Origin: an uncultured Eubacteriales bacterium
GTDB lineage: Bacteria > Bacillota > Clostridia > Lachnospirales > Lachnospiraceae
Assembly: GCA_900321915.1 (NCBI GenBank)
Contig: ONXW01000201.1
Coordinates: forward strand, 1 to 18,521
DNA: 18,521 nucleotides
Direction of reading: 5' to 3'
Shown here: piece by piece, positions 1 through 14,823 of the stretch
Layout of the letters: each line of letters opens with the position of its first letter
How positions within the stretch are numbered: position 1 is the stretch's first letter
Notes under the pieces: generated by a model
Told to the model about the DNA's origin: nothing
Databases searched by the model: none
The model's input: only the letters and a program-made list of their open reading frames with translations
Position numbers and translations under genes: made by a program

Positions 1-2574
1 CTCCGTAAGAATCTGCTCTCCCCGCTCCAGCCCGATGGAACGGCTGATGGGGATATCAATGATCACGGCCGATTTCTCACGGCTCTGGTTGACAAGATTC
101 GAAATAGAGTTGTTGTTGACAATCTTGATGTCGCGCGTATTGTCATCCATGAGCTTTGTGGTGCGTATGCCGATATCCGTCACGATTCCGCGGAAATCAT
201 CTATCACAACCACATCTCCCACCGTGAAGTCTCCCTCAAATATGATGAACACGCCTGACACGACGTCCGCAAGGAGACTGTTGGCCCCGAAGGTAAACAG
301 GAGGGCTGTCAGGCCGACACCGCCGATAAGGGTTGCAGTATTGACGCCGAACATGGACAGGGCGTAGATAATCATCACGATAGCGCCCCCATAGGTCAGC
401 AGGCTGTCCACCAGCCGGCAGATGGTCATCCCCTTCGGGCTCAGGTACTTCCCGAGTTTCAGAAGGAACATGTCCATCAGGCGCTGTATGGCGAATACCA
501 CGCTGACCAGCATGATGCAGGTGGTAATGGTTGCCGCGTTGACTCCCCGTATCCAGGTGCCGCGGACGATGTTGTAGGTCAGTCCGGCCGGGTCCCCCTT
601 CGTGATAAAGTACAGCGCAGCCGACAGGAGAAATACCGCGACCATGAAATCCCTCAGGAACTCTCCCAGCGGCGGGTATTCACTTCTGGCAGTGTATGCT
701 CCTGTCCCGGCATCTGCGGATAATTCCTTTTTCTGGTATGCGCAGAACAGTCGTACCGCAGGCCGGTAGACAAGCAGGAACAGGGCCAGGAACAGGAGGA
801 CAAAGAGAATCATGACCCCGCCGGCAAATACCAGCAGCGATACATCTTCACTGCCGACAATCACATAGTTGCCGTCATAGCTGAAGACCGTGGAATAGCA
901 TTTATTGCCTTCAAAATTGACGATGCCTTCATAGCCGTCATAGAGAAGTTCTGACCTGATACCGTGCTCCGCCGCGCTGTCTCCCACCCAGTTGTCCCAG
1001 GTTCCGGCAACGATCCGGCCGTCTTCATTCCCCTTGACAACCACGATATGGAGGGTATCGAGGGTGTGCAGGTCTCTCACCACTTCCCGGAGAATGGTAT
1101 CCTTCAGCAGTTCATCCAGTGCCGCCTGCTCCACGCAGAGTTCGACCCATCCGGATGTCTTTCCGTCTTCATTCTGCAGGGCGGCGCGGTAATACCGGGT
1201 CGGGAGTTCTTCCTCGGTTCCGTTACCGGGGATGATAACCGACCTGGTCCCCAGTCCCGCCATACTCTCATCCACTGCCTGATGCATCACTTCATCAGAG
1301 GCGAGAAGATTCCCGTCGGTGTCAAACACCCTGAGGCCCATTCCGTCCAGTGCCCTGTCCAGGCTGTTCAGGGAATCCACCTCAATGAGATTCGGGTTTT
1401 CCGAAAGGACGGACGCGGCGGTCGCAGCCCTTGTGGAATACATGGTATCAAATTCCTTGATGATAGTAGCGGCCCGCTCGGACTCCTGCCCGAGAACCTG
1501 CTTCAGGAAAACGGTCTGGTCCGTGGCTCCCTGCTGGCTCAGGTTGACGCCGCTCAGCATCTGGATGACGATGACGCTTACAAGCACCAGGAGACCCGTC
1601 AGGAACATGGCGGAAATACTGTTCTTTACAGCATTTACTCTCTCTTCCGCGGGATCCGTGCCCGGCTGGTACAGCTTCGTGTTCCAGAGGCATTTGACAA
1701 GCAGGACCATGACAGCGCAGCAGAGAAACCAGAGGCTCCAGCTTCTCTTCCGCCCGAAACGGACCAGTGTGTCAACCCTGGACACGCTGACCACAAGGTC
1801 GCTGGTATCCGCATAGGCTGCGCTGTAAAGAAAATATTCCGCCCCTGGGAGCAGTTCTGTCCTGGAGGACAGCGTCGTCTTCAGGGCGGTTTTTGTCCCT
1901 GTGCTCTGCGCTACCTGACGGAGCGCCTCCGGATTCATCTTCCCGCTGTCCAGCATGCCCCGGATCATCTGCAGGATGGCATCCTTGTTGTTATCCCGGG
2001 GATAGATAGAGTATTCTCCTTCGTGCAGGACCACGACATATCCGGGAAGGCCGGCCTGCAGCTGGCTCAGGAAATAATCCTCATCCTCCACAAAAGCCAT
2101 GCGGTTTTCCCGCTTGTTGCTGTGAAAGGAGAGGACGAGCCTGCGTCCGGGGTCAATCTGCGCAAAGCATGTGCTCCAGCCTTTGGCAGTATTCTCCTCC
2201 AGGAAGGAATCGTATTTATCCGTTGTAACCACCCTGGCCTCGTCCGCGCCGAGAATCTCGGCAATATGAGCCAGTTTCTGCGCATCGGAGGAGTGGGTTT
2301 CATCCGAATTATAGATAAACAGCGCCTGCTCTGCCCGCTTCCCGTAATCCTCGGTCATCCACCAGTTCCACCAGTCCTCCGTTTCCTGGATGTAATTGGC
2401 ATACATCCGGGGGTAATCATCCAGACGCTGGGCAATAAAATCAAAGCGGCTGACTGCATTCATTATGCCCCTCAGGGGCAGGATCAGCATAAGAAGCAGG
2501 GCTGCGCCGATGGCAAGGATTATGCAAAGCCGTACAGTCAGTGTTCTTTTAGTCGGGTCCTTTATTTTTAACAT
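1..2574 (-). CDS. MscS-type channel protein with two sensor-like extracytoplasmic regions (partial, C-terminus beyond the left edge)
   Basis: A reading frame is open from ATG at 2574-2572 to base 1 (858 codons, no stop), with AGGAGG six bases before the start. Membrane segments lie near residues 12-38, 279-297, 319-338, 579-604, 639-659, 679-697 and 720-779. The last one contains the MscS pore helix (IGGVGLTALLFTFGANSLL), followed by the beta domain (FEGDFTVGDVVVIDDFRGIV, then IGIRTTKL). Residues about 43-275 and 339-575 form two large, probably extracytoplasmic regions. The second contains VFDTDGNLLASDEV (416-429), which resembles a Cache/PAS-type sensor strand pair. MscS channels open on membrane tension or, in some subfamilies, ligand binding. 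Sensor control of this one is inference. It is divergent from the export cassette with 133 bases between start codons. The MscS core call is firm; the sensor assignment is tentative. Confidence 0.88.
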   Translation of the reverse strand, partial: MLKIKDPTKRTLTVRLCIILAIGAALLLMLILPLRGIMNAVSRFDFIAQRLDDYPRMYANYIQETEDWWNWWMTEDYGKRAEQALFIYNSDETHSSDAQKLAHIAEILGADEARVVTTDKYDSFLEENTAKGWSTCFAQIDPGRRLVLSFHSNKRENRMAFVEDEDYFLSQLQAGLPGYVVVLHEGEYSIYPRDNNKDAILQMIRGMLDSGKMNPEALRQVAQSTGTKTALKTTLSSRTELLPGAEYFLYSAAYADTSDLVVSVSRVDTLVRFGRKRSWSLWFLCCAVMVLLVKCLWNTKLYQPGTDPAEERVNAVKNSISAMFLTGLLVLVSVIVIQMLSGVNLSQQGATDQTVFLKQVLGQESERAATIIKEFDTMYSTRAATAASVLSENPNLIEVDSLNSLDRALDGMGLRVFDTDGNLLASDEVMHQAVDESMAGLGTRSVIIPGNGTEEELPTRYYRAALQNEDGKTSGWVELCVEQAALDELLKDTILREVVRDLHTLDTLHIVVVKGNEDGRIVAGTWDNWVGDSAAEHGIRSELLYDGYEGIVNFEGNKCYSTVFSYDGNYVIVGSEDVSLLVFAGGVMILFVLLFLALFLLVYRPAVRLFCAYQKKELSADAGTGAYTARSEYPPLGEFLRDFMVAVFLLSAALYFITKGDPAGLTYNIVRGTWIRGVNAATITTCIMLVSVVFAIQRLMDMFLLKLGKYLSPKGMTICRLVDSLLTYGGAIVMIIYALSMFGVNTATLIGGVGLTALLFTFGANSLLADVVSGVFIIFEGDFTVGDVVVIDDFRGIVTDIGIRTTKLMDDNTRDIKIVNNNSISNLVNQSREKSAVIIDIPISRSIGLERGEQILTE

Positions 2575-2599
2575 AAGATACCTCCTGCGCTCTTCTATC

Positions 2600-2628
2600 A
2601 GATTACCATCAGGAAAGCAGAAAATCAA
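2600..2628 (-). promoter_or_regulatory. Possible promoter of the MscS-type gene
   Basis: On the minus strand TTGATT (2628-2623) stands 17 bases before TAATCT (2605-2600), which is preceded by TGG, giving a TGn-extended -10. The -10 itself matches consensus at only three positions, so the call is weak. The site fits between the ribosome site (2582-2587) and the divergent export promoter. Confidence 0.35.
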
Positions 2629-2658
2629 CAATTCACGCACACTTCGGGGTTTTGTATG

Positions 2659-2667
2659 TGCTATAAT
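2659..2667 (+). promoter_or_regulatory. Extended -10 promoter of the export cassette
   Basis: TGCTATAAT (2659-2667) is a consensus -10 hexamer with the TGn extension. No good -35 is seen 16-18 bases upstream, as often holds for extended -10 promoters. Transcription would begin near 2674, leaving a leader of about 34 bases before the ATG at 2708. Confidence 0.55.
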
Positions 2668-2707
2668 AGATTCGGTACGGTGTAATTCTGTCTGCAGAGG
2701 AACTGTT

Positions 2708-3124
2708 ATGGATAATTTTATCTTCAGGAAGAAAAGTCTGGAACGAATCTCATCCCCGGAGGCCATGAATGATTATCTCCGGGTCACCGGCCCCGCCGTA
2801 TGGCTTGTCCTTGCGGCCGTTGTCATCCTGCTGGCCGGGATACTCGCCTGGAGCACCGCCGTGAGCATTGACAGCTTTGCAGCGGGCCGGGGCAGCGTAA
2901 AAAACGGAACGATGTATATCCGCTTTGACGATGATCAGGTTGCCCGCAATGTGGAAAGCGGGATGACCGTCACCGCCGGGAAAGCCGAGAGCAGGATCAC
3001 CAGCGTCGGCACCGATGATGACGGCGATCTTTTCGCCCTGGCGCCGACAGACCTGTCGGACGGCAATTACACGGTCGAAGTTCATTTCCGGCAGACGCAG
3101 GTGATTCGTCTGCTGTTCAACTGA
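2708..3124 (+). CDS. Miniature HlyD-like adaptor of an NHLP-type export system
   Basis: The protein has 138 residues. Its N-terminus (FRKKSLERISSPEAMNDYLR, 6-25) followed by a single membrane helix at 30-48 resembles the start of NHLM/NHLP bacteriocin secretion proteins, which are HlyD-type membrane-fusion adaptors. Only about 90 residues follow the helix. They look like the beta-rich part (ESGMTVTAG, SRITSVG, YTVEVHFRQ). The long coiled-coil hairpin and a clear lipoyl half-motif are missing, whereas full-length adaptors usually exceed 250 residues. The frame extends upstream to an ATG at 2465, but the start at 2708 has AGAGGA seven bases before it and gives the family-like N-terminus. The stop is followed after 10 bases by the peptidase-exporter gene, whose ribosome site overlaps this stop region, suggesting translational coupling. 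Likely role: a membrane-anchored accessory of the two ABC proteins. Confidence 0.72.
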   Translation: MDNFIFRKKSLERISSPEAMNDYLRVTGPAVWLVLAAVVILLAGILAWSTAVSIDSFAAGRGSVKNGTMYIRFDDDQVARNVESGMTVTAGKAESRITSVGTDDDGDLFALAPTDLSDGNYTVEVHFRQTQVIRLLFN

Positions 3125-3134
3125 GGAAACAGCC

Positions 3135-5315
3135 ATGTCGGATAATAAAGGAAAGACCGCGGCAGGGAAAAAGCGGACCCGCGTACCTGTCATCATGCAG
3201 ATGGAGGCACTGGAATGCGGCGCCGCCGCCCTTGCCATGGTCATGGCCTATTACGGAAAATGGGTGCCGCTGGAGCAGGTCCGCCTCGACTGCGGCGTCT
3301 CGCGCAACGGCTCCAACGCGAAAAACATGCTCAGGGCTGCCAGGAGTTACGGCTTTGAAGCCCAGGGGTTCCGCTGCGAGCCGGACGCCCTGTACGACAG
3401 CATTGTCCTGCCCTGCATCATCCACTGGAATTTCAACCACTTTGTGGTTCTCACCGGTCTCAGCGGCAAATATGCCTGGATAAATGATCCCGCCCGCGGA
3501 GATCTCAGGATCCCCGTTGAGGAGCTGGATTCATCTTTTACTGGAATCTGTCTCCAGATCACGCCCGGGGAAGGTTTCTGTCCCTCCGGGAAACCGAAAA
3601 GCATCCTGGAATTTGCGAAAAAGAAGCTTTCGGGAACCGGTCCGGCTGTCACTTTTGTCCTGCTCTCCTCGGTGATCGGTTATCTCTTTGCCATCATCAA
3701 CCCGGCTTTTTCACGGTTCTTTATGGACCGGCTGCTCACCGGCGAAAACAGGAACCTGCTGTATCACTTCCTGGGACTGATGATCCTTTTGGGCACGGCC
3801 CAGGTGGCAGCGCTCTGGATACAGACAGTCTACGCCCTGAAACTGGACGGCAAGATGTCGGCCGTAGGAAACAGCGAATACATGTGGAAGGTTCTCCGCC
3901 TTCCCATGGAGTTTTTCTCCCAGCGCCTGTCCGGGGACATCATGCAGAGACAGGGTACGAACGCCACCATCTCCGCGACCCTGGTGAATACCATGGCGCC
4001 CCTTGCGCTGAATGTCCTGATGATGGGGGTCTACCTCATTGTCATGCTCCGGTACAGCGTGATCCTCACGCTGGTCGGCGTCGTGACCATTGTCCTGAAC
4101 CTCTTAGTGACCCAGATTATTTCCGCAAAGCGCGTAAATATCACCCGTGTCCGGATGCGTGACGCGGGAAAGCTGGCGGCGGCCTCCCTCTCCGGCTTCC
4201 GGATGATCGAGAGCATCAAGGCCTCCGGCGCGGAAAACGGCTACTTCCAGAAATGGGCCGGCTACCAGGCCTCCGTCAACCGTCAGGATGTCCGATACGC
4301 CCGGCTGAACCGGTACCTGGGCCTGATCCCCGGCGCCCTCTCTTCCGTGGCGGGCGCCGTGGTCCTGATCCTCGGTGTATTTCTTGCTATGCAGGGGAAA
4401 TTTACCCTCGGCATGATCCTGTTTTTCCAGGGACTGCTCAGATCCTTCATGACACCCGCGGAGACGATCCTCCAGGCCGGGCAGCGCCTGCAGGAGATGC
4501 GCACAGACATGGAGCGGGTCGAGGATGTCATGAAATATCCGGATGACCCCGTATTTTCCGGACCTAAATACGTGGAGGAACAGGATTACTCCAAGCTCTC
4601 CGGCGAGGTGGAGCTGAAAAATGTCACCTTCGGGTATTCCCGCCTGGAGGAGCCCCTTATCCGGGATTTCTCCATGCATGTGAAACCCGGCAGCCGGGGC
4701 GCCCTGGTGGGCCCCTCCGGTTGCGGAAAGTCCACCGTTTCCAAACTTGTCTCCGGCATCTGCCAGCCCTGGAGCGGGGAAATCCTGTTTGACGGCAAAC
4801 CCATTTCCCAGATTGAGCGCAGTGTGTTTACCGGCTCTGTTGCCGTCGTGGACCAGGAAATCCTGCTGTTTGAGGATACTGTGGCGGATAATATCAAGAT
4901 GTGGGACGAGTCCATCGAAGATTTCGAGATGATCCTGGCCGCGCGGGACGCGCAGATATACGACGATATCATGGCAAGGGAAGGCGGCTTCCGCGGAAAA
5001 CTCACGGAGAACGGAAAGGATCTCTCCGGCGGCCAGAGGCAGCGCCTTGAGATTGCCAGGGCGCTGGCCCAGGATCCCTCCATAATTATCATGGATGAAG
5101 CTACCTCCGCCCTGGACGCCAGGACGGAATATGAACTGGTAAAGGACGTGAATGACCGCGGGATCACCTGCATCGTCATCGCCCACCGCCTGTCCACGAT
5201 ACGGGACTGCGATGAGATCATCGTTTTTGACCGAGGGCTGGTCGTGGAGCGGGGCACCCATGAAGAACTGATGGCGAAGGGCGGCGCTTACGCGAAGCTC
5301 ATCGCCAGTGACTGA
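3135..5315 (+). CDS. C39-peptidase ABC exporter (NHLP family peptidase/permease/ATPase)
   Basis: The 726-residue protein combines a leader peptidase, a membrane domain and an ATPase. The N-terminal C39 cysteine protease has Q22, C28 (in LECGAAAL), H102 (in NFNHFVVL) and D118 (in INDPARG). This is the spacing known for ComA-type peptidases, so the catalytic set looks intact. The membrane domain spans roughly residues 167-445. The ATPase has Walker A GPSGCGKST (526-534), signature LSGGQRQR (630-637), Walker B IIIMDEATSALD around D654 and the H-loop H684. The family cuts double-glycine leaders in the cytoplasm and exports the mature peptide using ATP. Here the only nearby double-glycine substrate is the PepSY protein at 7616. 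The next ABC gene begins 14 bases downstream, so the two probably act together, perhaps as a heterodimer (inference). Confidence 0.93.
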   Translation: MSDNKGKTAAGKKRTRVPVIMQMEALECGAAALAMVMAYYGKWVPLEQVRLDCGVSRNGSNAKNMLRAARSYGFEAQGFRCEPDALYDSIVLPCIIHWNFNHFVVLTGLSGKYAWINDPARGDLRIPVEELDSSFTGICLQITPGEGFCPSGKPKSILEFAKKKLSGTGPAVTFVLLSSVIGYLFAIINPAFSRFFMDRLLTGENRNLLYHFLGLMILLGTAQVAALWIQTVYALKLDGKMSAVGNSEYMWKVLRLPMEFFSQRLSGDIMQRQGTNATISATLVNTMAPLALNVLMMGVYLIVMLRYSVILTLVGVVTIVLNLLVTQIISAKRVNITRVRMRDAGKLAAASLSGFRMIESIKASGAENGYFQKWAGYQASVNRQDVRYARLNRYLGLIPGALSSVAGAVVLILGVFLAMQGKFTLGMILFFQGLLRSFMTPAETILQAGQRLQEMRTDMERVEDVMKYPDDPVFSGPKYVEEQDYSKLSGEVELKNVTFGYSRLEEPLIRDFSMHVKPGSRGALVGPSGCGKSTVSKLVSGICQPWSGEILFDGKPISQIERSVFTGSVAVVDQEILLFEDTVADNIKMWDESIEDFEMILAARDAQIYDDIMAREGGFRGKLTENGKDLSGGQRQRLEIARALAQDPSIIIMDEATSALDARTEYELVKDVNDRGITCIVIAHRLSTIRDCDEIIVFDRGLVVERGTHEELMAKGGAYAKLIASD

Positions 5316-5329
5316 AAAGGAGGCGGAAT

Positions 5330-7513
5330 ATGGGTTGGTTTGACGAACAGATATCCCGTCGAAGACAGAAAGACCAGGAAAGCATGGAAGACGCTCTCTT
5401 CCATATCGCCTCGGCCGTTGTGGGAGCACAGCAGGCCGGATACATGAACGATAAGCGCATCCCCGCCAAGACCGCTGTCGATGATATCCTGAAGTACTAT
5501 CACAGAAAGCCTGCCGCGGTTCCGGAGAATATTACGGAGCTTGACGACTATTTGGAATACTGCATGCGCCCCCTGGGCATCATGTGGCGAAGGGTCACCC
5601 TGGAGGAAGGCTGGTATAAAAATGCCATGGGGCCCATGCTGGGATTTAACGGCGAGGGCGGGGCAGCCTGCGCCCTCATTCCCGGAAAGCTCTCCGGATA
5701 CCGCTACCGCGACCCAGAAACCGGCGCCATGGTCAGGGTGGACAAAAAGACAGCCTCACGCCTGGATGACGACGCGCTGTGTTTCTACTGTCCCCTGCCC
5801 CTCCGGAAAATCGGGGTCCGGGACCTGATCCTCTATCTCACGGACTGCCTGGATATGGGAGATTTTATGCTCTTCTTCCTGCTCTCCCTGGGGGTCACAC
5901 TGCTCGGTATGGTGATGACGAGCATTACCCGTTCCCTCACAGGGTTTGTGCTGGAGAGCGGGGACCTTTCCCTGCTGGCAGGGACGGCCGCTTTCATGAT
6001 CGCCGTCATCCTCTCCTCCCAGCTCATCAGCGCGTCGGGACAGCTGATGATGAGCCGGATCGGGACCAAGGCCTCCGTGGCCATGGAGGCCGCCGTGATG
6101 ATGCGCATCATGGACCTGCCCCCCGGATTCTTCCGGAAACACTCCTCCGGTGAACTGTCCGGCCGTTTCCAGGCCCTGGCGCAGATCTGCAGCGTGCTGC
6201 TGAACAATGTTTTTTCCGTCGGTATCAGCGCGCTGCTGTCCCTGCTGTACATCACGCAGATTTTCCACTACGCGCGCCCCCTGGCATTTACGGCCTTCCT
6301 GATTATCTTCGCGGGACTCATCCTGAGTGTTCTGGCCGGCCTTGCCCAGATGCAGGTCAGCCGGTATGTCCTGGAGAAGGGTACGGAGGAAAACGGCATA
6401 AGCTTTGCGCTGATCTCAGGGGTGCAGAAGATCCGGCTCACCGGGGCGGAAAAACGGGCCTTCGCGAAATGGGGTCACGCCTACGCCGAGACTTCTGAGC
6501 TCCGCTATAATCCGCCCATGATTATACGCGCGAACACGGCTCTGTCCGCGGCGCTCTCCCTGGCCGGCACCGTCCTGCTCTTCTGGATTGCGGTGAATCA
6601 TCGGATCACACCGTCGGAATATATCGCTTTCAATACCGCCTTCGGCGCGGTGACCGCCTCTTTCGGGGCCCTGGCGGGCGTGGCGCTCTCCTTCGCGGAA
6701 ATAAAGCCGATGCTGGAGACGGCGGAACCCATCCTCTCCGCAGTCCCCGAAGGTTCCGAAAAAAGAACCCTGGTCACGGAGCTGTCAGGAGATATCGAGG
6801 TCTCAAACCTGTACTTCCGCTACCAGCCGAACATGCCGTGGGTGGTAAACGGACTGAACCTGAAAATCCGTCCGGGAGAATACATCGCCATCGTCGGCAC
6901 CACAGGCTGCGGCAAAAGCACGCTGATCCGCCTTCTTCTGGGGTTTGAGACGCCGGAGGTCGGCGCCGTCTATTATGACGGAAGGGATCTCTCAGGGCTG
7001 GATCTCCACTCCCTGCGCAGGCAGATAGGAACGGTCATGCAGAACGGAAGCCTTTTCCAGGGTGACATTTTCTCCAACATCGCCGTCTCCGCCCCGCAGA
7101 TGACCCTGAAGGACGCATGGGAAGCCGCGGAGCTTGCAGGTATCGCGGATGACATCCGGCGGATGCCGATGGGGATGCAGACACAGCTCTCCGAGGGACA
7201 GGGCGGAATCTCCGGCGGCCAGAAGCAGCGCCTGATGATCGCCCGGGCCCTGGCGCCGAAGCCCCGGATCCTGATCTTCGACGAAGCCACATCCGCCCTG
7301 GACAACAGGGTCCAGAAGCAGATCTCCGAAGCCCTTGACGGGCTGAACTGTACAAGAATCGTCATCGCCCACCGGCTGTCCACCATCCGCAACTGCAGCC
7401 GTATCCTGGTGCTGGACCAGGGAAAAATCATCGAGGACGGCAGCTATGAAGAGCTGGTGGAAAAGAACGGCCTCTTCGCGGAACTCATCGCAAGACAGCG
7501 GCTGGACAGTTAA
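5330..7513 (+). CDS. Second ABC exporter subunit (NHLP bacteriocin export permease/ATPase type)
   Basis: The 727-residue protein starts at an ATG with AGGAGG six bases upstream. It opens with GWFDEQISRRRQKDQESMED, a stretch I associate with the NHLP export permease/ATPase subunits. Residues about 1-165 form a cytosolic domain without the C39 Cys/His/Asp arrangement, so it is not an active leader peptidase and may dock cargo or partner. Membrane helices fill about 176-450. The ATPase has Walker A GTTGCGKST (about 522-530), signature ISGGQKQR (about 627-634), Walker B ILIFDEATSALD near D651 and H-loop H681. All ATPase motifs look intact, so both subunits could hydrolyse ATP. Gene order adaptor, peptidase-ABC, ABC matches NHLM-type bacteriocin loci. 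The family is firm; its function here depends on the cargo call. Confidence 0.88.
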   Translation: MGWFDEQISRRRQKDQESMEDALFHIASAVVGAQQAGYMNDKRIPAKTAVDDILKYYHRKPAAVPENITELDDYLEYCMRPLGIMWRRVTLEEGWYKNAMGPMLGFNGEGGAACALIPGKLSGYRYRDPETGAMVRVDKKTASRLDDDALCFYCPLPLRKIGVRDLILYLTDCLDMGDFMLFFLLSLGVTLLGMVMTSITRSLTGFVLESGDLSLLAGTAAFMIAVILSSQLISASGQLMMSRIGTKASVAMEAAVMMRIMDLPPGFFRKHSSGELSGRFQALAQICSVLLNNVFSVGISALLSLLYITQIFHYARPLAFTAFLIIFAGLILSVLAGLAQMQVSRYVLEKGTEENGISFALISGVQKIRLTGAEKRAFAKWGHAYAETSELRYNPPMIIRANTALSAALSLAGTVLLFWIAVNHRITPSEYIAFNTAFGAVTASFGALAGVALSFAEIKPMLETAEPILSAVPEGSEKRTLVTELSGDIEVSNLYFRYQPNMPWVVNGLNLKIRPGEYIAIVGTTGCGKSTLIRLLLGFETPEVGAVYYDGRDLSGLDLHSLRRQIGTVMQNGSLFQGDIFSNIAVSAPQMTLKDAWEAAELAGIADDIRRMPMGMQTQLSEGQGGISGGQKQRLMIARALAPKPRILIFDEATSALDNRVQKQISEALDGLNCTRIVIAHRLSTIRNCSRILVLDQGKIIEDGSYEELVEKNGLFAELIARQRLDS

Positions 7514-7533
7514 CCGAAAATTCATCATTAAAA

Positions 7534-7567
7534 CACAGATTTTTCACCCCTGCCGGTGTATTCTGTG
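7534..7567. repeat. Two-tier dyad upstream of the PepSY cargo gene
   Basis: Outer arms CACAGA (7534-7539) and TCTGTG (7562-7567) enclose inner arms CACC (7545-7548) and GGTG (7555-7558). The dyad ends on the TGn of the putative extended -10 and covers the -35 region. It has no T-run after it, so it is not an obvious terminator. An operator or leader structure is possible, but the arms are short and could be chance. Confidence 0.35.
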
Positions 7568-7574
7568 GTAAAAT
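7566..7574 (+). promoter_or_regulatory. Possible own promoter of the PepSY cargo gene
   Basis: TGGTAAAAT (7566-7574) is a TGn-extended -10 with five of six hexamer matches and no clear -35. Transcription would start near 7581, about 35 bases before the ATG. It would let the cargo be made in excess over the exporter, as precursor peptides often are. Confidence 0.42.
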
Positions 7575-7615
7575 ACCTTATATGAAAAAAACACATTATT
7601 GCAGGAGGAAACACT

Positions 7616-7879
7616 ATGGGAAATATCGAGAAGCTTAACGATGATACAATGGAACAGGTATCCGGAGGTACTCTCTCCCAGGATCAGGCTCTGGCAAAGG
7701 CATTCGAGCATGCGGGCATTCCCGGTGGCCAGGTGGATTTCCTGAAGAAGGTGGAAATGGACTATGAGCACGGCAGACCCGTGTATGAGATCAAGTTCTA
7801 CAAGGGCGGCTATGAATATGAGTATGATATCGATGCTGAAACCGGCGCTGTCCTGAAATTTGAGAAAGATTTTGACTGA
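7616..7879 (+). CDS. Double-glycine-leader PepSY domain protein, probable exporter cargo
   Basis: The 87-residue protein has AGGAGG (7603-7608) seven bases before its ATG. The leader MGNIEKLNDDTMEQVSGG (1-18) fits the double-glycine class: L at -12, M at -7, V at -4 and GG at -2/-1. Cleavage after G18 by the C39 exporter would release 69 residues. These read as one PepSY domain: a helix (SQDQALAKAFEHAG), then strands VEMDYEHGRPVYEIKFYKGG and YEYEYDIDAETGAVLKFEKD, with the typical YEI...YDIDAETG pattern. The mature part has 15 acidic and 8 basic residues and no Cys or Trp, so disulfide or lanthionine chemistry is not expected. PepSY domains are known from propeptides of M4 proteases, where they restrain the protease, and from other extracytoplasmic proteins. 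Export as an intact domain is inferred from the leader and from the position 102 bases behind the exporter genes. Confidence 0.85.
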   Translation: MGNIEKLNDDTMEQVSGGTLSQDQALAKAFEHAGIPGGQVDFLKKVEMDYEHGRPVYEIKFYKGGYEYEYDIDAETGAVLKFEKDFD

Positions 7880-7900
7880 TTCGGCAGCAGACCGACATAG

Positions 7901-7950
7901 AAAAGAAGACCGGCGGGACACATCTCTGTGCCTCGCCGGTCTTCTTTTTT
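7901..7950. terminator. Bidirectional terminator between the PepSY gene and rbsB
   Basis: Arms GAAGACCGGCG (7905-7915) and CGCCGGTCTTC (7934-7944) pair over 11 bases. Six T follow on the plus strand (7945-7950), and AAAA precedes the first arm (7901-7904), giving a T-run on the minus strand. It serves two convergent transcription units: the export cassette and the rbs operon. Confidence 0.9.
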
Positions 7951-7977
7951 ATGCAGTTTTCCCGCCCTGTGCAGGGA

Positions 7978-8934
7978 TTACTGTACGTTGTCCTTTGTGA
8001 TAAGGCTTACTTCGACCGGAAGGGTCTTCTCTACGGACTCGCCTGCCATCAGCTTTGCTGCGGTCTCAACAGCGGTAGCGCCCATAAGGTCCGGCTGCTG
8101 TGCAACGGTTGCAGCCATGGTGCCTTCCTTAACTGCCTCGATAGCGTCGTCAGTTGCGTCAAAGCCTGCTACGATGATGTCCTTGCCGCTGATTGCCTCG
8201 ATAGCGCCGAGTGCCATCTCATCGTTGTGAGCGAATACGCACTTGATGTCGGGATTGGCCTGGAGCATGTTCTCCATAACGGTCATACCCTCTGCACGGT
8301 TGAAGTTTGCGGTCTGGCTTGCAACCACATCCAGCTTCTCATCTGCCACAGAGTGGAAGCCCTCGCCGCGGTCGATGGTTGCGCTTGCGCCGTTAACGCC
8401 TTCCAGCTCGGCTGTCTTAGCCTTCTCTCCTGCCAGCTCAACCAGGTACTCAGCTGCCATCTTCGCGCCGGCTACGTTGTCGGAAGCGATGGAGCAGTCA
8501 ACTTCTACACCGTTTACCACACGGTCTACCGCGATAACCTTGATGCCCTTCTCGATGGCATCCTCTACCGCCGGGGCAACAGCGTCAGAATCTACCGGGT
8601 TTACGATAAGAACCTTGATGTCCTTGGAGATCAGGTCTTCGATATCGCTGGTCTGCTTTGCGGAGTCATCACCTGCATCAACTACGATCAAGTCAACACC
8701 CAGCTCTTTTGCCTTTGCCTCAGCTCCGTCGGAAAGTGTGACGAAGAAGGGGTTGTTCAGGGTGGAAAGGGACAGGCCGACGCTTCCGGCCTCTGCTGCC
8801 GCTTCTCCGCCTTCTGCTGCCGCTTCGGTTGCTGCCGCTTCAGTTTCTGCCGGCTTGTTTCCGCTTCCGCATGCCGCCATGGAAAGAACCATGAGAGATG
8901 CTGTCAATAATGCTGCAATTTTCTTCAGTTTCAT
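7978..8934 (-). CDS. rbsB: Ribose ABC transporter substrate-binding lipoprotein
   Basis: The 318-residue protein is the sugar-binding component for the RbsA/RbsC transporter. A signal peptide with lipobox MAAC places the lipidated cysteine at residue 22. An Ala/Glu-rich linker (about 29-50) tethers the domain to the membrane. The periplasmic-binding-protein type I fold starts at SVGLSLSTLNNPFF and includes the ribose-type stretches VVDAGDDSAKQ, NPVDSDAV, CVFAHNDEMALGAIEA and VAGFDATDDA. The ribosome site GGAGG (8944-8948) is nine bases before the ATG. It is the last gene of the operon, preceded by a 117-base gap that carries a strong hairpin, and ends 28 bases before the shared terminator. 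A related galactose or allose specificity cannot be excluded by eye, but rbsD and rbsK next to it favour ribose. Confidence 0.93.
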   Translation of the reverse strand: MKLKKIAALLTASLMVLSMAACGSGNKPAETEAAATEAAAEGGEAAAEAGSVGLSLSTLNNPFFVTLSDGAEAKAKELGVDLIVVDAGDDSAKQTSDIEDLISKDIKVLIVNPVDSDAVAPAVEDAIEKGIKVIAVDRVVNGVEVDCSIASDNVAGAKMAAEYLVELAGEKAKTAELEGVNGASATIDRGEGFHSVADEKLDVVASQTANFNRAEGMTVMENMLQANPDIKCVFAHNDEMALGAIEAISGKDIIVAGFDATDDAIEAVKEGTMAATVAQQPDLMGATAVETAAKLMAGESVEKTLPVEVSLITKDNVQ

Positions 8935-8978
8935 ACCTTTTTTCCTCCATTTTTAAAAAAATAGGTTTCTATGCGCAA

Positions 8979-9023
8979 CACCTGTCCCCGGACCGCCGTT
9001 TTCCGGCGGACCGGTTCCGGGTG
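8979..9023 (-). other. RNA hairpin between rbsC and rbsB
   Basis: On the minus strand CCGGTCCGCCG, loop GAAAA and CGGCGGTCCGG form a stem with one T-T mismatch (plus-strand arms 8988-8998 and 9004-9014). CACC/GGTG pairing at the base adds to it. There is no T-run directly after it, so it is probably not a simple terminator. A stability or processing element that raises rbsB relative to rbsC is the likely role (inference). Confidence 0.6.
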
Positions 9024-9051
9024 ACTGTGCCGTTCTTTCTCTTTCCGCCGC

Positions 9052-9987
9052 TTACCTCTTCCGGTCGGAAAGTACCGCGATCAGGATGACGACCGCCTTG
9101 ACGACGGACTGATAGTAGGAAGATACGCCGAGGATATTCAGTCCGTTATTCAGTACCGCGATGATCAGGACACCGACGAAGGTTCCCCAGATCCGGCCGC
9201 GGCCGCCGTTCATGCTGGTGCCGCCCAGAGCTACGGAAGCGATGGCGTCCAGCTCGTATCCGTCGCCCAGTGTGGGCTGTGCGGAATTCAGACGGGACAG
9301 AAGAATCAGTCCGGACAGGGCAGCCATGCATCCGGAGATGGCATAGGCTGCGAGTTTTGTGCGGTCAATGTTGACACCGGCCAGCTTTGCGGAGACGGCA
9401 TTGCTTCCCGTCGCGTAAATCCGGCGGCCGAAGGTCGTCTTTTCCAGCACAAACATAAAGATGGCAAATACCGCCACGAAAAGGATAACCGGGAAAGGAA
9501 TTCCGAGAACGCTTCCTTTACCCACAAACTTCAGCAGGGCGCTGCTGCCGAGTCCGGAGATCGGCTTGCCGTTCATGAATATCATGGTGATGCCGCGGAA
9601 AGCCGTCATCGTGATCAGCGTCGCGATGAAGGGCTGCAGGCGTCCCTTGGTAACCAGGGTTCCGCTGACGCAGCCGAAAGCTGTACCGATGACAAGAGCA
9701 AGCAGCATGGCGATACCGGCGGGCATGCCGCCCTTGATAAATGACGCGCAGAACGCTGTGGTCAGGGCCAGGACCGAACCGACCGACAGGTCGATTCCGC
9801 CGGTAAGGATGACGCAGGTCATGCCGAAGGCGATAAATCCGTTAATTGAAGACTGCCTGACCAGTGACATGAAGTTATCGATCGTCCTGAACTGAGGACT
9901 TATCACACTGATAACTATAACCAGCAGGACCAGCGCGATAAGCGCTCCCAGGTCCTGAATCTTAGACATAAAATCTTTCTTATCCAT
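9052..9987 (-). CDS. rbsC: Ribose ABC transporter permease
   Basis: The 311-residue hydrophobic protein forms the membrane channel for sugar import. It has about ten predicted helices and the family stretches [31 protein letters not shown] and [18 protein letters not shown] sequence near the end. I place the start at 9987 ([10 protein letters not shown]) because AGGAGG lies eight bases upstream of it. An in-frame ATG at 10008 lies before that ribosome site and would add seven residues. With the 9987 start, the gene overlaps the end of rbsA by eight bases (ATGGATAA), implying translational coupling. It works with RbsA (ATPase) and RbsB (binding protein). Confidence 0.93.
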
Positions 9988-11470
9988 CGAGCTGCCCTCC
10001 TGTGGCAAGAGTCATGATATTTTCCTGATTTGCTTTTTCCCTGTCGATAAAGCCGGCGATATGTCCCTCGTGTACTACCATGACACGGTCAGACATTCCG
10101 AGAACCTCCGGCAGCTCGGATGAAACCATGATGATGGCAACGCCCCTTGCGGCCAGGTCATTGATAATGGAATAAATTTCCTTCTTCGCGCCGATATCGA
10201 CTCCTCTGGTAGGCTCATCCAGAATCAGCACTGTGGGATCCGTAAAAATCCACTTCGCAAAAACAACCTTCTGCTGGTTGCCTCCGCTCAGCTCCCCGCA
10301 GGCGTGCTTCGGTCCGGTGCAGCGGATGTGCAGATCCTCGATACCCTTTTTCACCATATCGAGCTCCGCCTTCGCGTTCAGCACGCCGCCGGAAGATATC
10401 TTGTCAAGGTTCGCCACGGAGATATTCTTCATGATGCTCTCTTCCAGCATCAGGCCCTCGACCTTGCGGTCCTCGGTGATGAAGCCGATTCCGTTTTTCA
10501 TGGCATCGCCCGGTGTCTTATTATGGACTTCTTTGCCGTTTACCAGGATGGTACCCGTCACATCAGGCATATTGCCGAAGATCGACTGCATGATCTCCGT
10601 GCGCCCCGCGCCCATCAGGCCGGCGACGCCCAGGACCTCGCCCTTGCGGACGCTGAAATTCACGTCCTCAAAGATGCCCGGACAGGTCAGGTTCTTTACC
10701 TCAAACTCTGTGTCTCCCAGGGTGACATTCCGCTCCGGATAACGCTCGCCGATCTCGCGGCCGATCATCATGCGGACCACTTCGGTCATGTCCGTCTCGG
10801 GGATATTCCTTGTGCCGACATACTCGCCGTCCCGCAGGATGGTAATCCTGTCGCACAGCTCAAAGATCTCCTCCATTCTGTGGGAAATGTAGACGATCGA
10901 CACGCCCTTCTCGCGAAGCGAGCGAACCACCTGGAACAGGACCTCTGTCTCACTCTGCGTGAGCGCCGCCGTGGGCTCGTCCATGATAATGACCTTAGCG
11001 TCCACCATCAGCGCCTTCGCAATCTCAATCATCTGCTGCTGTCCGATGGAAAGGGTGTTCATCTTCCTTCCCGGATCAATCTTTACCCCGAGCAGGTCCA
11101 GGATCCTCTTTACTTCCTTCCGCATCGCCTTTGAGTCGCAGATGCCGAACTTTCCGTGGATCTCCTTCCCGAGGAACATGTTCTCTTCCACCGTCAGGTC
11201 GAACAGGACATTCAGCTCCTGGTGGATAAACACAATTCCCGCTTTTTCCGCTTCCTGGGGATTTTTATATACAACCTCCTGGCCATCCACAATGACTGTT
11301 CCGGCGTCGCGGGTATAGACACCGGTCAGGATTTTCATCAGCGTGGATTTTCCGGCGCCGTTCTCTCCCATCAGCGCGTGGATCTCGCCATCGGCGAGCT
11401 CAAATCCCGCATTGCGGAGCACCGGGTTGCCGCCAAATGCTTTATTGATTCCCCGCATTTCAATCTGCAT
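9980..11470 (-). CDS. rbsA: Ribose ABC transporter ATPase with two nucleotide-binding domains
   Basis: The 496-residue protein powers ribose import. The first ATPase domain has Walker [10 protein letters not shown] (about 35-43), signature LSIGQQQ and Walker [13 protein letters not shown]. The second has a degenerate Walker [11 protein letters not shown], with Arg in place of the usual Lys, then signature LSGGNQQK and Walker [13 protein letters not shown]. An inactive-looking second P-loop is normal in RbsA/MglA-type proteins. Length matches the family (about 490-500). GGGAGGG lies five bases before the ATG. The gene starts 13 bases after rbsD ends and overlaps rbsC, so it sits inside one operon. 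Confidence 0.95.
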
Positions 11471-11483
11471 AAGAACCCTCCCG

Positions 11484-11897
11484 TCAGAAAATACAGCCGG
11501 ACTGAAGGATGATGTTGGAGTACGGCGTTGTCTCTCCTGTGCGGATCACCGCCTTACAGTCCTTCGTCATCTTTTTCAGTTCCGCATGGCTCACAAACGC
11601 AACCTCAGGCGCACCGGCTTCCCCGGACTCTTTGAAAAACTGAAGAACCGCCTGAAGCATCTCCGCGTTCTTTTCCCGGATCTCCTCCGCCAGGAAGATC
11701 TTCTCAATCTTCATATCTCCTGCCACAACCTTCAGCACATCCAGGAATGACGGCTGTCCGAACTGAACCGCCAGGTCAATCCGTTCCGTCTCATCCGGGA
11801 CCGGCAGGCCGCAGTCGCCGATGCAGATCTGATCCGTGTGTCCCATATAGGAGAGGACGCGGGAAATATCACTGTTTAAAACTCCGTTTTTCTTCAT
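11484..11897 (-). CDS. rbsD: D-ribose pyranase
   Basis: The 137-residue protein interconverts the pyranose and furanose forms of ribose, so that the imported sugar suits ribokinase. The N-terminus [22 protein letters not shown] and the downstream IGDCGLPVP are typical. H20 and D28 occupy the positions of the known active-site His and Asp. The family is usually 130-140 residues. AGGAGA lies seven bases before the ATG. The gene follows rbsK by 22 bases and precedes rbsA by 13, so co-transcription is very likely. Confidence 0.93.
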
Positions 11898-11919
11898 GTT
11901 TTTTTCTCCTGATCCTCAC

Positions 11920-12804
11920 TTATCCCAGCGCTTTCTCAACTTCCTCCGCGGTCGGCATGCCGCCCTGGGCGCCGAACTTCTCCGTGGAGAGGCTTGCCGC
12001 GGTATTCGCGTACCTGAGGGCTTCCTCCGGGGAATCCCCCAGCGCAATCCTGACGCAGAATGCCCCGTTCATCGTGTCGCCTGCACCGGTAGTATCCGCC
12101 ACCTTCGCCGGACGCACGGGTACATTCAGTACTTTGCCGTTTTTCAGTCCCACGGAAACGCCGCGGGAGCCCTGGGTGATGACCAGCTTCTCCGGATAGC
12201 TCAGAAGAAGCTCCTCCGCAGTCTTGTCTTCACCGAAGATAAGCCCCGCTTCGTGCTCGTTCGGGGTAAGCCAGGTCACCTTTTCGATGATCTCCGGCGG
12301 GACATCCGCAGCGGGCGCCGGGTTGAGAACCACAGGAATCCCCTTCTCGCTGCACAGTCCGACAATATAATGTACGGTATCCAGCGGGATCTCATGCTGA
12401 AGAACTACCATGCTGTAACCCAGGAGCTCATCTTTGATGCTGTCCACATAAGCCCGGTCAACCTTCCCGTTGGCGCCCGCCACTACTATGATGGTATTGT
12501 CATTATCTCCAACGGTGATGATGGCAATTCCTGTCGGAACTCCCTCAACAACGCGGATATAGTCCGTATTCACACCATTGGCCCGGAGATTCTCAACCAT
12601 CTTCTTTCCGTTCTCGTCGTCGCCCACACATCCGAACATGGCCGTCTCCGCCCCGAGCCTTGCCATCGCAACCGCCTGGTTCGCGCCTTTCCCTCCGGGG
12701 ATATAGCGCAGGTCATGTCCGTGAAGCGTCTCTCCTTTGTTCGGAATCCGGTCCGCTATTACGGTCTGGTCAATATTGATACTTCCGACAACCGCAATTT
12801 TCAT
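11920..12804 (-). CDS. rbsK: Ribokinase
   Basis: The 294-residue PfkB-family kinase converts ribose to ribose 5-phosphate using ATP in the cytoplasm. The first PfkB signature is GGKGANQAVAMARLG; the second is DTTGAGDTMNGAF, with the catalytic Asp at residue 243. NPAPAADVP and LTPNEHEA are also typical of ribokinase. I choose the ATG at 12804 (MKIAVVGSINID) because AGGAGG sits eight bases before it and the protein then begins like other ribokinases; an ATG at 12828 would add eight residues in front of that site. It is the first gene of the rbs operon. No rbsR regulator gene is linked here. Confidence 0.94.
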   Translation of the reverse strand: MKIAVVGSINIDQTVIADRIPNKGETLHGHDLRYIPGGKGANQAVAMARLGAETAMFGCVGDDENGKKMVENLRANGVNTDYIRVVEGVPTGIAIITVGDNDNTIIVVAGANGKVDRAYVDSIKDELLGYSMVVLQHEIPLDTVHYIVGLCSEKGIPVVLNPAPAADVPPEIIEKVTWLTPNEHEAGLIFGEDKTAEELLLSYPEKLVITQGSRGVSVGLKNGKVLNVPVRPAKVADTTGAGDTMNGAFCVRIALGDSPEEALRYANTAASLSTEKFGAQGGMPTAEEVEKALG

Positions 12805-12852
12805 GTACCTTACCTCCTTCCCGTTCATGGAATAAAACCCATATTAATTATT

Positions 12853-12861
12853 ATTTTAGCA
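12853..12861 (-). promoter_or_regulatory. Probable rbs operon promoter (extended -10)
   Basis: On the minus strand TGCTAAAAT (12861-12853) gives a TGn-extended -10; only a weak TTTTAA lies 17 bases upstream. Transcription would start near 12846, about 42 bases before rbsK. The surrounding 12829-12997 is very AT-rich and otherwise gene-free. I see no consensus cre site there, but TATGATCATA (12920-12929) and TTTTAAAA (12874-12881) are short palindromes. Confidence 0.45.
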
Positions 12862-12997
12862 CTTCTGTCCGGATTTTAAAACCGTGAGCAATGCAATAAT
12901 TCAACGATCTTGATATATTTATGATCATATGTGTTATTACTATATCTTATATTAACTATAAATACATTAAACCAATCCGAAATATAATTATATCGTC

Positions 12998-13026
12998 AAA
13001 AAAAGAGACCGGCATTTGCCGGTCTC
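12998..13026 (-). terminator. Terminator of the 451-residue lipoprotein gene
   Basis: On the minus strand GAGACCGGC, loop AAAT and GCCGGTCTC form a perfect nine-base stem (plus-strand arms 13005-13013 and 13018-13026), followed by seven T. It lies 22 bases past the stop codon at 13049. Confidence 0.93.
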
Positions 13027-13048
13027 CAGTAAGCCGGGATGCAGCGCG

Positions 13049-14404
13049 CTACGCCCCGAATTCCATATCCAGAACCATCTGTGTTTTTAGTGACTCTGTC
13101 TGCAGGAGGATATCCAGCTCCGTGAGGGTATCCTTTATCCCTTCCCTGCACCGGACAGCCTCCCCCGCGTCTCTGCATTCAGCGGAAAGCTCCGCGATAT
13201 ACCGGGCCTCTGCGCCGTCCGCTTCCGGGAATTCCCATATCTCTATCTCTATCTTCGTTTCCGCGCAGGTGCCCGTATAGCGTTTAAAGAATACCGGGCC
13301 TGCCTCTTTTGCAGCTTTGAGTGCCTGCGTACCCCAGCCCTCAGACTTCCAGTCCCGCTCCGCGGAAGGCATCTGCGTTTCGCAGAATTCCCCCGCTTCC
13401 TCCGCGGACAGGTCCGCGATGCCGGATTTGCCGTCCGAAGGATATTCCGCCTCGGCGGAAAGACTCAGGGTCATGCCGGAAATGCCCCACTCGATCTGGC
13501 TCTCCCATTCTCCCCCCGTCAGGTCAAAGCCTTCCGCCTCGGCGAGCTGCATGGCGGCACTGATATCATCTCCCTGCACCGGGTATCGTTTTTTAAATGT
13601 GAATTTATAGCCCTTCTCAGGCTTGTCCTCCCGTATCCGCACACGGTTGAACCACCCCTCGCCGCTGAATGTCCTGTCCGGGGTCTCCAGGAAGAAGAGG
13701 CCGTAGCGCTTTACCTTCTTTTCCCCTGCCGAAAAGGCGTCGATAAACTCCTGTTTCAGCTGATTGTCCTCATCCAGCACCTTGTCCGCGTCCAGGAGGA
13801 AGCGGACCTCATAGGAGTCCGGCTCCCGGAAATCCTGTCCGCCCTCCGCCTGCGCTTCCGGGGCAGGGATGGACCTTGCGGCCAGCGATTCACAGAATGC
13901 CTTAAACTCGCCTCCCATGCTGCCGGAGGAGAAGGAGTACTCCTGGTAAATGGATTCGTCCCCGGTCCAGTACAGGTAAGTCCAGGGACCGCTGTCCCCG
14001 GTCGTGACATCCTCACTCCTCGGTTTTACCGTGCCGTCCTTCAGGTATCCGAGAAACTGTTTCCACTCTGCCTCCTGCAGGTCAAAACACCCGGTAAGCG
14101 TGGTATCCTCCTCCGTCGCAGGCCCGTACTCATCCGGCCTCTCCCTGGTTTCGTGGAAAAACATGTACTTTCCGTCTTCGGTGTAAAAGCGGTATCTCTG
14201 ATAGAAAGCGTTATAATTGATATTTTCATAAGTATAGTAAAAATCCGTAATGTCTTCCGCCCGGATATCCTTTCCGACAACCAGCTCACTCTTATTTTCC
14301 GAAGCGCCGGTCGACGGCTCGGCCTGCGCGATGTCCGGGGCGCATCCGGCGGCCGCTGCCAGGGCCAGGAGCCCGCAGACTGCATACAGAAGTAATTTTT
14401 TCAT
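13049..14404 (-). CDS. Large lipoprotein of unknown function
   Basis: I do not recognise a family. The 451-residue protein begins with a lipoprotein signal peptide; lipobox AAGC puts the lipidated cysteine at residue 21. A short Ser/Glu-rich linker follows. The rest is acidic and rich in aromatic residues, with repeated beta-strand-like stretches such as DFYYTYENINYNAFYQRYRF and WTYLYWTGDESIYQEYSF. This suggests a surface-exposed beta-rich domain, but no catalytic motif stands out. AGGAGG lies seven bases before the ATG. It has its own promoter and terminator, so it is a single-gene unit. Its residues do not resemble the other lipoprotein at 14850, apart from the similar secretion signal. Confidence 0.85.
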   Translation of the reverse strand: MKKLLLYAVCGLLALAAAAGCAPDIAQAEPSTGASENKSELVVGKDIRAEDITDFYYTYENINYNAFYQRYRFYTEDGKYMFFHETRERPDEYGPATEEDTTLTGCFDLQEAEWKQFLGYLKDGTVKPRSEDVTTGDSGPWTYLYWTGDESIYQEYSFSSGSMGGEFKAFCESLAARSIPAPEAQAEGGQDFREPDSYEVRFLLDADKVLDEDNQLKQEFIDAFSAGEKKVKRYGLFFLETPDRTFSGEGWFNRVRIREDKPEKGYKFTFKKRYPVQGDDISAAMQLAEAEGFDLTGGEWESQIEWGISGMTLSLSAEAEYPSDGKSGIADLSAEEAGEFCETQMPSAERDWKSEGWGTQALKAAKEAGPVFFKRYTGTCAETKIEIEIWEFPEADGAEARYIAELSAECRDAGEAVRCREGIKDTLTELDILLQTESLKTQMVLDMEFGA

Positions 14405-14448
14405 GGTATCTCCTCCTGTTTTCCTGTAGGATGGTCTCTCTCCAGATT

Positions 14449-14477
14449 ATTTTATGCCATTTTCACGGAATACTCAA
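14449..14477 (-). promoter_or_regulatory. Promoter of the 451-residue lipoprotein gene
   Basis: On the minus strand TTGAGT (14477-14472), a 17-base spacer and TAAAAT (14454-14449) form a good sigma-A-type promoter. Transcription would begin near 14442, giving a leader of about 38 bases. It begins about 20 bases past the terminator of the upstream small gene. Confidence 0.65.
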
Positions 14478-14496
14478 GAATGTGCCATAAAAGCAG

Positions 14497-14518
14497 AAAA
14501 ACCGGCCAAAATGGCCGG
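14497..14518 (-). terminator. Terminator of the 60-residue protein gene
   Basis: On the minus strand CCGGCC, loop ATTTT and GGCCGG are followed by five T (plus-strand arms 14502-14507 and 14513-14518, A-run 14497-14501). It lies about 33 bases past the stop codon of the small gene. Confidence 0.8.
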
Positions 14519-14551
14519 CTTTCCCGCATCAGGTCAATAAGCTGTAAATCA

Positions 14552-14734
14552 TCAGCATCGGATACCCAGTTCCATCATCCAGTCAACAAAGCTGTCGGCT
14601 TCATCCGGACTGAAGTACTTTTTGTGAAGAGTTATCCCGGCAGGCGGCATCCCGTGATTCCGTTCCGCGGGGACGCCGTAGCTTTCCTGCCTTACCTGCA
14701 GTGTTTCATACTCATTGACATCTGTTTTTAACAT
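14552..14734 (-). CDS. Small protein of 60 residues, unknown function
   Basis: I do not recognise it. The protein begins MLKTDVNEYETLQVRQESYG, contains AGITLHKKYFSPDEADSFVD, and ends WMMELGIRC. It is soluble-looking, with no signal peptide, membrane helix or double-glycine leader. The C-terminal part could be an amphipathic helix. Support for a real gene comes from context: an extended -10 promoter at 14771-14779, a purine-rich ribosome site (GAGGGG, about nine bases before the ATG), and a GC-rich hairpin with T-run after the stop. It stands alone between two lipoprotein genes, in the same direction. Confidence 0.68.
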   Translation of the reverse strand: MLKTDVNEYETLQVRQESYGVPAERNHGMPPAGITLHKKYFSPDEADSFVDWMMELGIRC

Positions 14735-14770
14735 CCTACTTTCCCCTCTTTCGAATGTTCTCCTGTCCTG

Positions 14771-14779
14771 ATTATACCA
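14771..14779 (-). promoter_or_regulatory. Extended -10 promoter of the 60-residue protein gene
   Basis: On the minus strand TGGTATAAT (14779-14771) is a consensus -10 with TGn extension. The -35 is weak. Transcription would start near 14764, about 30 bases before the ATG at 14734. Confidence 0.6.
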
Positions 14780-14823
14780 GATATAGAGGAAAGGATCATT
14801 TTACAATCTATACATAGTACTTA

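Follow-up and report, generated by a model that had tools for sequence, protein, structure and literature searches.

The window considered here, an 18,521-nucleotide stretch of contig ONXW01000201.1 from an uncultured Eubacteriales bacterium (Lachnospiraceae; assembly GCA_900321915.1), contains at positions 7616-7879 a gene for an 87-residue protein in which a double-glycine (GG) leader of the type cut by C39 peptidases is fused directly to a single PepSY domain, and which follows the genes of a C39 exporter of the ATP-binding cassette (ABC) type. The type of leader and the place of the gene right after the exporter genes lead to the prediction that this pump carries the protein out of the cell, and export of the protein by a C39 exporter is, judging from the sequence, highly probable. 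It is likely, if held with somewhat less assurance, that the PepSY module acts in the cell-wall space, and it is proposed tentatively, at rather under an even chance, that it restrains a wall enzyme in particular. The joint reading, in which a free PepSY module cut from its leader reaches the wall space through the C39 exporter and there restrains a wall enzyme, is the explanation that we favour, with modest confidence. The gene and its parts are the following.

7603-7608, forward strand: Shine-Dalgarno sequence AGGAGG, read from the sequence, 7 nucleotides 5' of the ATG
7616-7879, forward strand: open reading frame (ORF) of 87 amino acids, 18-residue GG leader plus PepSY domain
7616-7669, forward strand: double-glycine leader of 18 residues, MGNIEKLNDDTMEQVSGG, with L-12, M-7, V-4, G-2 and G-1
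7670-7879 including the stop codon, forward strand: single PepSY domain of 69 residues from T19, the predicted mature product (PF03413, AlphaFold2)

The fusion of an 18-residue leader to a single 69-residue PepSY domain, as described in an earlier note on this DNA, is confirmed by the ORF, and the profile check that the note called for has been run and passed: PF03413 matches residues 20-82 with 52.4 bits against a cut-off of 24 (E 6.6e-14). The AlphaFold2 model contains one confident domain, scoring 85-93 in blocks of ten residues from residue 21 on, whose helix is predicted to pack on a four-stranded antiparallel sheet as in the PepSY fold, while the leader region is of low confidence (pLDDT below 50 at residues 1-3 and 5-17). 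Fold matches of the modelled domain include CD1622, YpmB/TseB and YpeB, with YpmB and YpeB among the best. The protein has no hydrophobic stretch, its predicted 69-residue mature product has an isoelectric point (pI) of 4.63, and it is the sole PepSY match at E 0.001 in its draft genome (2.28 Mb, 83.6% complete, 426 contigs). Since the PepSY match ends five residues before the end of the ORF, which carries no M4 peptidase fusion, the idea of an M4 propeptide acting in cis is rejected. A propeptide-like role in trans, in which the protein is exported in the same way and blocks a secreted protease, either its own or a foreign one, as an extracellular inhibitor, is a separate alternative that we consider unlikely.

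The earlier note's reading of a double-glycine leader is borne out, the leader belonging to the C39 type. Positions -12, -7, -4 and the GG pair are those named for leader recognition in the papers on PCAT1 (PMC6959990), LahT (PMC6363468) and MAM (PMC12184118) and in work on the rtg exporter; papers are cited throughout on the basis of those parts of their text that were available. The spaced pattern is present in 85 of 100 database relatives of the protein. In 81 relatives the stretch up to the GG is 18 residues or longer and the leader rule is obeyed; these have L, I, M or V at -12, M or L at -7 and V or I at -4, and 69 of them have T at +1. The 19 that fail the 18-residue rule comprise, by eye, four GG leaders of 15-17 residues, five sequences without GG, and ten that start at an internal codon just 5' of the motif, one of which reads SG. 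All six genomic copies of the leader form, from the window and from five further genomes, have L at -12, L or M at -7, V or I at -4 and GG at -2/-1.

The general leader model TIGR01847 gives the window protein 13.4 bits against a cut-off of 15.7, so that the leader by itself is no database-grade match, and TIGR03793 and TIGR03798 (the NHLP/Nif11 leader models) do not match this protein at E 1. Among the 47 members of the alignment, TIGR01847 matches 17 and TIGR03798 matches four (best 0.0065) at E 0.1 or better. Despite its sub-cut-off score the leader is, as a sequence, far from chance, because the spaced pattern recurs in so many relatives and because of the result with a position-specific scoring matrix (PSSM) built only from the leaders of the GG-LysM and GG-CW_7 proteins described below, with the glycines omitted: one of 4775 control 17-mers reaches the score of the window leader, the controls being internal GG 17-mers of the fetched loci, among which true leaders may be present. 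In the reverse direction, a PSSM from PepSY leaders places 22 of 33 GG-LysM and 26 of 51 GG-CW_7 leaders above the 99.9th percentile of the controls, which means that the three kinds of leader are alike in pattern but not identical. These data bear on the alternative that the GG motif is incidental and the protein cytosolic, to which we give almost no credence: it can appeal to the sub-cut-off score and to the five GG-less relatives, but it is opposed by the leader pattern in 85 of the 100 relatives, by the near fixity of -12, -7 and -4, by the sharing of the leader in kind with LysM and CW_7 proteins, and by the position of the gene directly behind a C39 exporter.

That exporter bears out the suggestion of a nearby leader-cleaving ABC exporter, since it is encoded directly upstream and its first ABC protein exceeds the TIGR03796 cut-off. 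Its genes are these; the TIGR03794 scan of the first ran from the codon at 2705, and its start is read as the ATG at 2708.

2708-3124, forward strand: mini-HlyD, a short membrane protein of 138 amino acids (TIGR03794, 27.4 bits, cut-off 156.2, over the first 53 of 421 positions)
3135-5315, forward strand: ABC1, C39 peptidase plus permease plus ATPase (NHLM_micro_ABC1, a PCAT; TIGR03796, 901.7 bits, cut-off 853.3)
5330-7513, forward strand: ABC2, permease plus ATPase without peptidase (NHLM_micro_ABC2-like; TIGR03797, 697.0 bits, cut-off 709.4)

The motifs of ABC1 are intact (C39 residues Q22, C28, H102 and D118; Walker A at 526, LSGGQ at 630), and ABC2 has Walker A at 523 and ISGGQ at 627. The C39 domain of ABC1 is identical to that of LahT (6mpz) at 95 of 136 aligned residues (70%); the free protease domain of LahT strips leaders from very different precursors, and it cuts a peptide that retains the last 13 leader residues (PMC6363468). 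The mini-HlyD gene is not a broken gene, because the HlyD-like gene is similarly short (69-167 residues) in all 12 of the extended relative loci.

The NCBIfam name of such an exporter, "NHLP family bacteriocin export", raises the alternative that the NHLM label is right and that the PepSY protein kills or signals to neighbouring cells. The weak matches of the bacteriocin leader model TIGR01847 to members of the alignment point the same way. The product is nevertheless an acidic domain with a confident folded model, the class II bacteriocin profiles remain below their cut-offs (Bacteriocin_IIc at 12.1 against 27.1, in addition to TIGR01847), and the convergent downstream gene encodes a sugar-binding protein. 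A bacteriocin is rejected on the grounds of the profiles and the acidic folded product, and the alternative as a whole, signalling peptide included, is very improbable.

The preference for the cell wall as the site of action of the exported PepSY module comes from the other cargo associated with the exporter. ABC1 proteins were collected from 59 loci (two in the window's own genome, one each in the genomes RUG674 and RUG13498, 27 from 246 genomes of the order, and 28 from a sample of the family of RUG674), and in a tree of these proteins, made by a quick method with SH-aLRT support only and including one row (L197) with an internal stop, the window falls in a clade of ten rows (SH-aLRT 97), next to the ABC1 of G1172 (SH-aLRT 88), whose locus contains a GG-LysM and a GG-CW_7 protein. 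GG-leader PepSY, LysM or CW_7 proteins lie within about 10 kb in six of the ten clade loci and in none of the 49 outside (Fisher p 5e-6, or 3e-5 without the window, kinship being ignored), and all six GG-PepSY genomes carry a clade exporter. Domain models for PepSY, LysM and CW_7, built from the leader-bearing families with the leader removed and therefore possibly favouring their kin, found 19 frames over 64 loci (the 59 exporter loci plus five with GG-PepSY); every one of the 19 has a GG leader, and 12 lie in exporter loci. Exporters outside the clade are accompanied by other GG-leader proteins (short peptides and Cys-rich proteins), and several by none.

Proteins with the same kind of leader on peptidoglycan-binding modules are found in two of the genomes that have the GG-PepSY form and beside exporters of the same clade, which makes the cell wall the likely site of action. 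LysM is named as a peptidoglycan-binding domain in PMC10100652 and PMC9159523, and CW_7 repeats bind a muropeptide (PMC5705596). Both in RUG674 (locus L002) and in RUG13498 (L003), each of which has several GG-leader LysM proteins, one of these is encoded 2.1 kb past the PepSY gene. A GG-leader protein with two CW_7 repeats adjoins the RUG674 exporter; genes for GG-CW_7 proteins are found next to clade exporters or at other places in the genome. The leader pattern is present in all 76 database relatives of the GG-LysM family and in 79 of the 82 of the GG-CW_7 family, with three failing. GG-LysM proteins account for seven of the ten LysM matches in RUG674, two others having no GG leader and one being only partly read, and both RUG674 ORFs with CW_7 matches carry GG leaders. 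LysM loci with short flanks (L108, L114-L117, L124) lay outside the principal reading of leaders; L116 was resolved and L114 is listed separately. The proteins are located as follows.

L002 12353-12550; L003 3154-3354: GG-leader LysM proteins (65-91 amino acids where read from the start codon)
L112, L116, L118, L119, L121, L122, L123, L125, L127, L129; L188, L189, L191, L204: GG-leader LysM proteins, further loci
L043 156-479; L105 1444-1686; L107 1297-1626; L188 12454-12771: GG-leader CW_7 proteins
L189 11768-12094; L191 12361-12690; L204 5159-5491: GG-leader CW_7 proteins

A further GG protein, at L127 67-363, was considered as an SH3 domain and dropped, its one Pfam match being to DUF2963 below cut-off. 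Between GG-PepSY and GG-LysM lies a protein of 618-630 amino acids with a signal-like N-terminus (L002 10354-12246; L003 1191-3047), which in L002 has a zinc-ribbon-like end that scores below Pfam cut-offs.

In the mechanism that we propose, the C39 domain would bind the leader through L-12, M-7 and V-4 and cut after G18; ABC1, together with ABC2 and mini-HlyD, would move the unfolded 69-residue chain outward; and the PepSY domain would fold outside, stay in the wall space, and there bind and restrain a wall enzyme or protease. The choice of target is the weakest step. Our bet, made by analogy, is on a peptidoglycan hydrolase or synthase, because of the fold shared with YpeB and YpmB/TseB and because peptidoglycan binders accompany the protein. 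Second-hand reports tell of SleB being inhibited by YpeB (PMC4282423) and of a pull-down of PBP2A with TseB (PMC10653890). A broader proposal, which we rate as possible at somewhat less than an even chance, is that the exporter clade is a general Sec-independent secretion system of clostridial bacteria for GG-leader PepSY, LysM and CW_7 modules, encoded nearby or scattered, which fills the wall with free binders and regulators, and that the PepSY protein of the window is its wall-enzyme regulator. Quite improbable, in comparison, is an envelope building block, that is, a structural or shielding surface component without an enzyme target, as has been proposed for MAM of Faecalibacterium. LysM and CW_7 cargo would adhere to peptidoglycan, as such a role would suggest, but the main text of the MAM paper, so far as available, does not contain the word PepSY, the MAM model is helical, and there is one leader-form match per genome both in the sample of the window's own family and in the RUG674 family sample.

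A number of observations, besides the sub-cut-off leader score, weigh against the favoured reading. ABC2, although matched over nearly its full length, and mini-HlyD score below the cut-offs of TIGR03797 and TIGR03794. Foldseek returned no PDB match at E 0.001 or below for the modelled domain (best CD1622, 1.5e-3), and according to PMC10653890 the PepSY domains of YpeB seem not to mediate binding to SleB, and no binding of the PepSY part of CopD to the transpeptidase domains of PBPs was observed; binding, by the account of that paper, does not always reside in the PepSY part. Four of the ten clade exporters (G1088, G1262, G1278, G1337) have no GG-leader PepSY, LysM or CW_7 cargo in the fetched stretch, several such stretches stopping at contig ends; in the genome of the window itself CW_7 has no match, and a GG leader was seen in none of the three LysM matches, two of which have short flanks. 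That genome also has a second NHLM ABC1 (L049, G000:C250, on a 3.5-kb contig), which is 58% identical to the first and falls outside the clade, and which could serve the PepSY protein instead. Adjacency of the PepSY gene to an exporter is seen in one genome only, itself the draft described above; in the other five of the six genomes no NHLM exporter was found in the fetched flanks of the gene, the L003 contig stopping 838 bases before it. ORFs were listed for four of these orphan loci, and among ten neighbours from three of them that were profile-searched no family recurs (amidohydrolase, alpha-amylase, DUF218, nitroreductase, P5C reductase, a weak S33 hydrolase, GDSL lipase, a sortase in G1262, exo/endonuclease-phosphatase and SHMT), so that the genomic context names no target.

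Measured by the refuting observation that the earlier note named, homologues that sit away from C39 transporters, the genomes tell partly against its reading: the adjacency stands in the window, and the fusion recurs in five more genomes, each of which has one ABC1 over the TIGR03796 cut-off elsewhere. A strict pairing of gene and exporter, with one of six genomic copies adjacent, is rejected. The leader form is rare in the species sampled. Among the sorted matches listed for the family sample of 397 genomes, E 1e-20 was reached in no genome but the window's own. At 1e-21 the class sample of 391 genomes gave none, and the order sample of 392 gave four further genomes, whose matches start at query positions 9-16 and lie in frames 255-485 residues long. 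Two more leader forms came from a scan of genome contigs (RUG674 and RUG13498) and three from the family sample around RUG674 (300 genomes: G1380, G1197, G1262), in which ten genomes pass 1e-20, only four of them with a match that takes in the leader by starting at position 1 or 2; among the matches without the leader, the one in G1359 is 40 bases away from where its contig stops. For comparison, the 33 best-scoring PepSY loci of the family and order outside the window's genome were taken, not at random, with each ORF read from its first possible codon. A hydrophobic stretch lies within the first 70 residues in 30 of the 32 complete ORFs and is lacking in two, and none of the 32 is shorter than 110 residues. 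Because so large a share is hydrophobic at the N-terminus and the window protein is not, the domain, as judged by sequence comparison, normally follows a Sec- or membrane-type N-terminus, which is here replaced by a C39-type leader.

A scan for sigma-70 sites listed no forward-strand promoter ahead of the PepSY gene; by eye, a candidate extended -10-like element, TGGTAAAAT, is present at 7566-7574. The following element lies between the PepSY gene and the gene of the convergent sugar-binding protein (7978-8934, reverse strand), which opens a set of ribose-type transport and kinase genes.

7896-7953, forward strand: long hairpin with a T run 3', likely terminator (-41.3 kcal/mol, z -12.1 against 200 shuffles)

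It is probably a terminator shared with the convergent gene; a pattern scan did not list it.

As to the origin of the DNA, the window ABC1 is closest to clade ABC1s of genomes sampled around RUG674 (71-74% identity, against 50-64% for sampled loci of its own family), and the genus-mates G293 and G709 have no leader form of PepSY. The whole window (1-18521) may be a product of horizontal transfer or a misbinned contig; G+C content, at 0.562 in the window and 0.516-0.577 in four further stretches of the same genome, is not decisive. A plasmid or phage origin is rejected, with two plasmid records, no phage records and no relative confirmed in viral contigs; both plasmid matches start at query residue 15 or 16, so that the leader is not included.

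GG-leader genes of other kinds also occur at NHLM loci. Outside the clade, short GG- or GA-leader peptides ending in PIDDDLRKDG or variants are present in L180, L187, L192, L194, L196 and L200. In G434 (L089 4810-7823) nine tandem GG-leader ORFs, most of them Cys-rich C-terminally, stand ahead of an NHLM ABC1. A GG-leader protein with an RDSWFV motif lies directly 3' of ABC2 (L047 14947-15198; L048 5289-5531; L189 5449-5727), the position that GG-PepSY has in the window; in the one that was scanned, whose gene also appears as L045 3187-3438, no Pfam model passes its cut-off.

Several elements of this system have precedents. PCAT1 and CtA of Clostridium thermocellum (PMC6959990) likewise combine a C39-ABC exporter with a small substrate. 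CtA has a GG leader of 24 residues and a cargo of 66, close in size to that of the window, but within the transporter this cargo is described as unstructured, and the available text gives it no role; the window cargo is a recognisable domain, and the exporter genes here encode an NHLM-type pair plus a mini-HlyD. MAM of Faecalibacterium (PMC12184118) is a GG-leader protein beside a PCAT gene that is found in the envelope, but, unlike the window protein, it is abundant and lattice-like, with a helical model that has no PepSY domain in the text available. The window resembles NHLM/NHLP systems (Haft 2010, PMC2887384) in its combination of an ABC1 with peptidase, an ABC2 and an HlyD-like gene, and differs from them in the 138-residue length of its HlyD-like protein and in a cargo without a nitrile hydratase- or Nif11-type leader. 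LahT, whose C39 domain (PDB 6mpz) is so similar, comes from Lachnospiraceae C6A11, and its cluster has nine precursor peptides, LahA1-9, with Nif11-type leaders (PMC6363468). YpmB/TseB, CopD, YpeB and SspA (PMC10653890, PMC4282423) also place their PepSY fold outside the membrane and are tied to peptidoglycan enzymes, but they have two or three PepSY domains in place of a single domain with a GG leader, TseB and CopD being membrane-anchored and SspA having a lipoprotein signal.

The exporter family, the leader type and GG-leader proteins that are not bacteriocins (CtA, MAM) are therefore already known, and what would be new is PepSY, LysM and CW_7 modules as a class of cargo for them. Among the matches listed from open-access literature, which leaves most subscription journals outside its scope, no description of these domains as GG-leader cargo was found. 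The only paper found there that joins PepSY with double-glycine, bacteriocin or C39 peptidase was PMC6393860, where, in the parts available, the PepSY and GG mentions concern different genes; the available parts of PMC3482391, PMC10100652 and PMC9159523, which combine LysM with double glycine, describe no GG-leader LysM cargo; and neither PepSY nor LysM occurs as a word in the main text, as available, of a bacteriocin survey of rumen isolates (PMC13289728).

PCAT exporters have been studied mostly with bacteriocins and pheromones, and NCBI models call this type bacteriocin exporters. If one clade does export PepSY, LysM and CW_7 modules, then some annotated bacteriocin loci would be loci for the secretion of wall proteins, and single-domain wall proteins would have an overlooked export route separate from Sec. 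Orphan GG-leader genes would then also become readable, with the leader telling the route and the domain telling the place.
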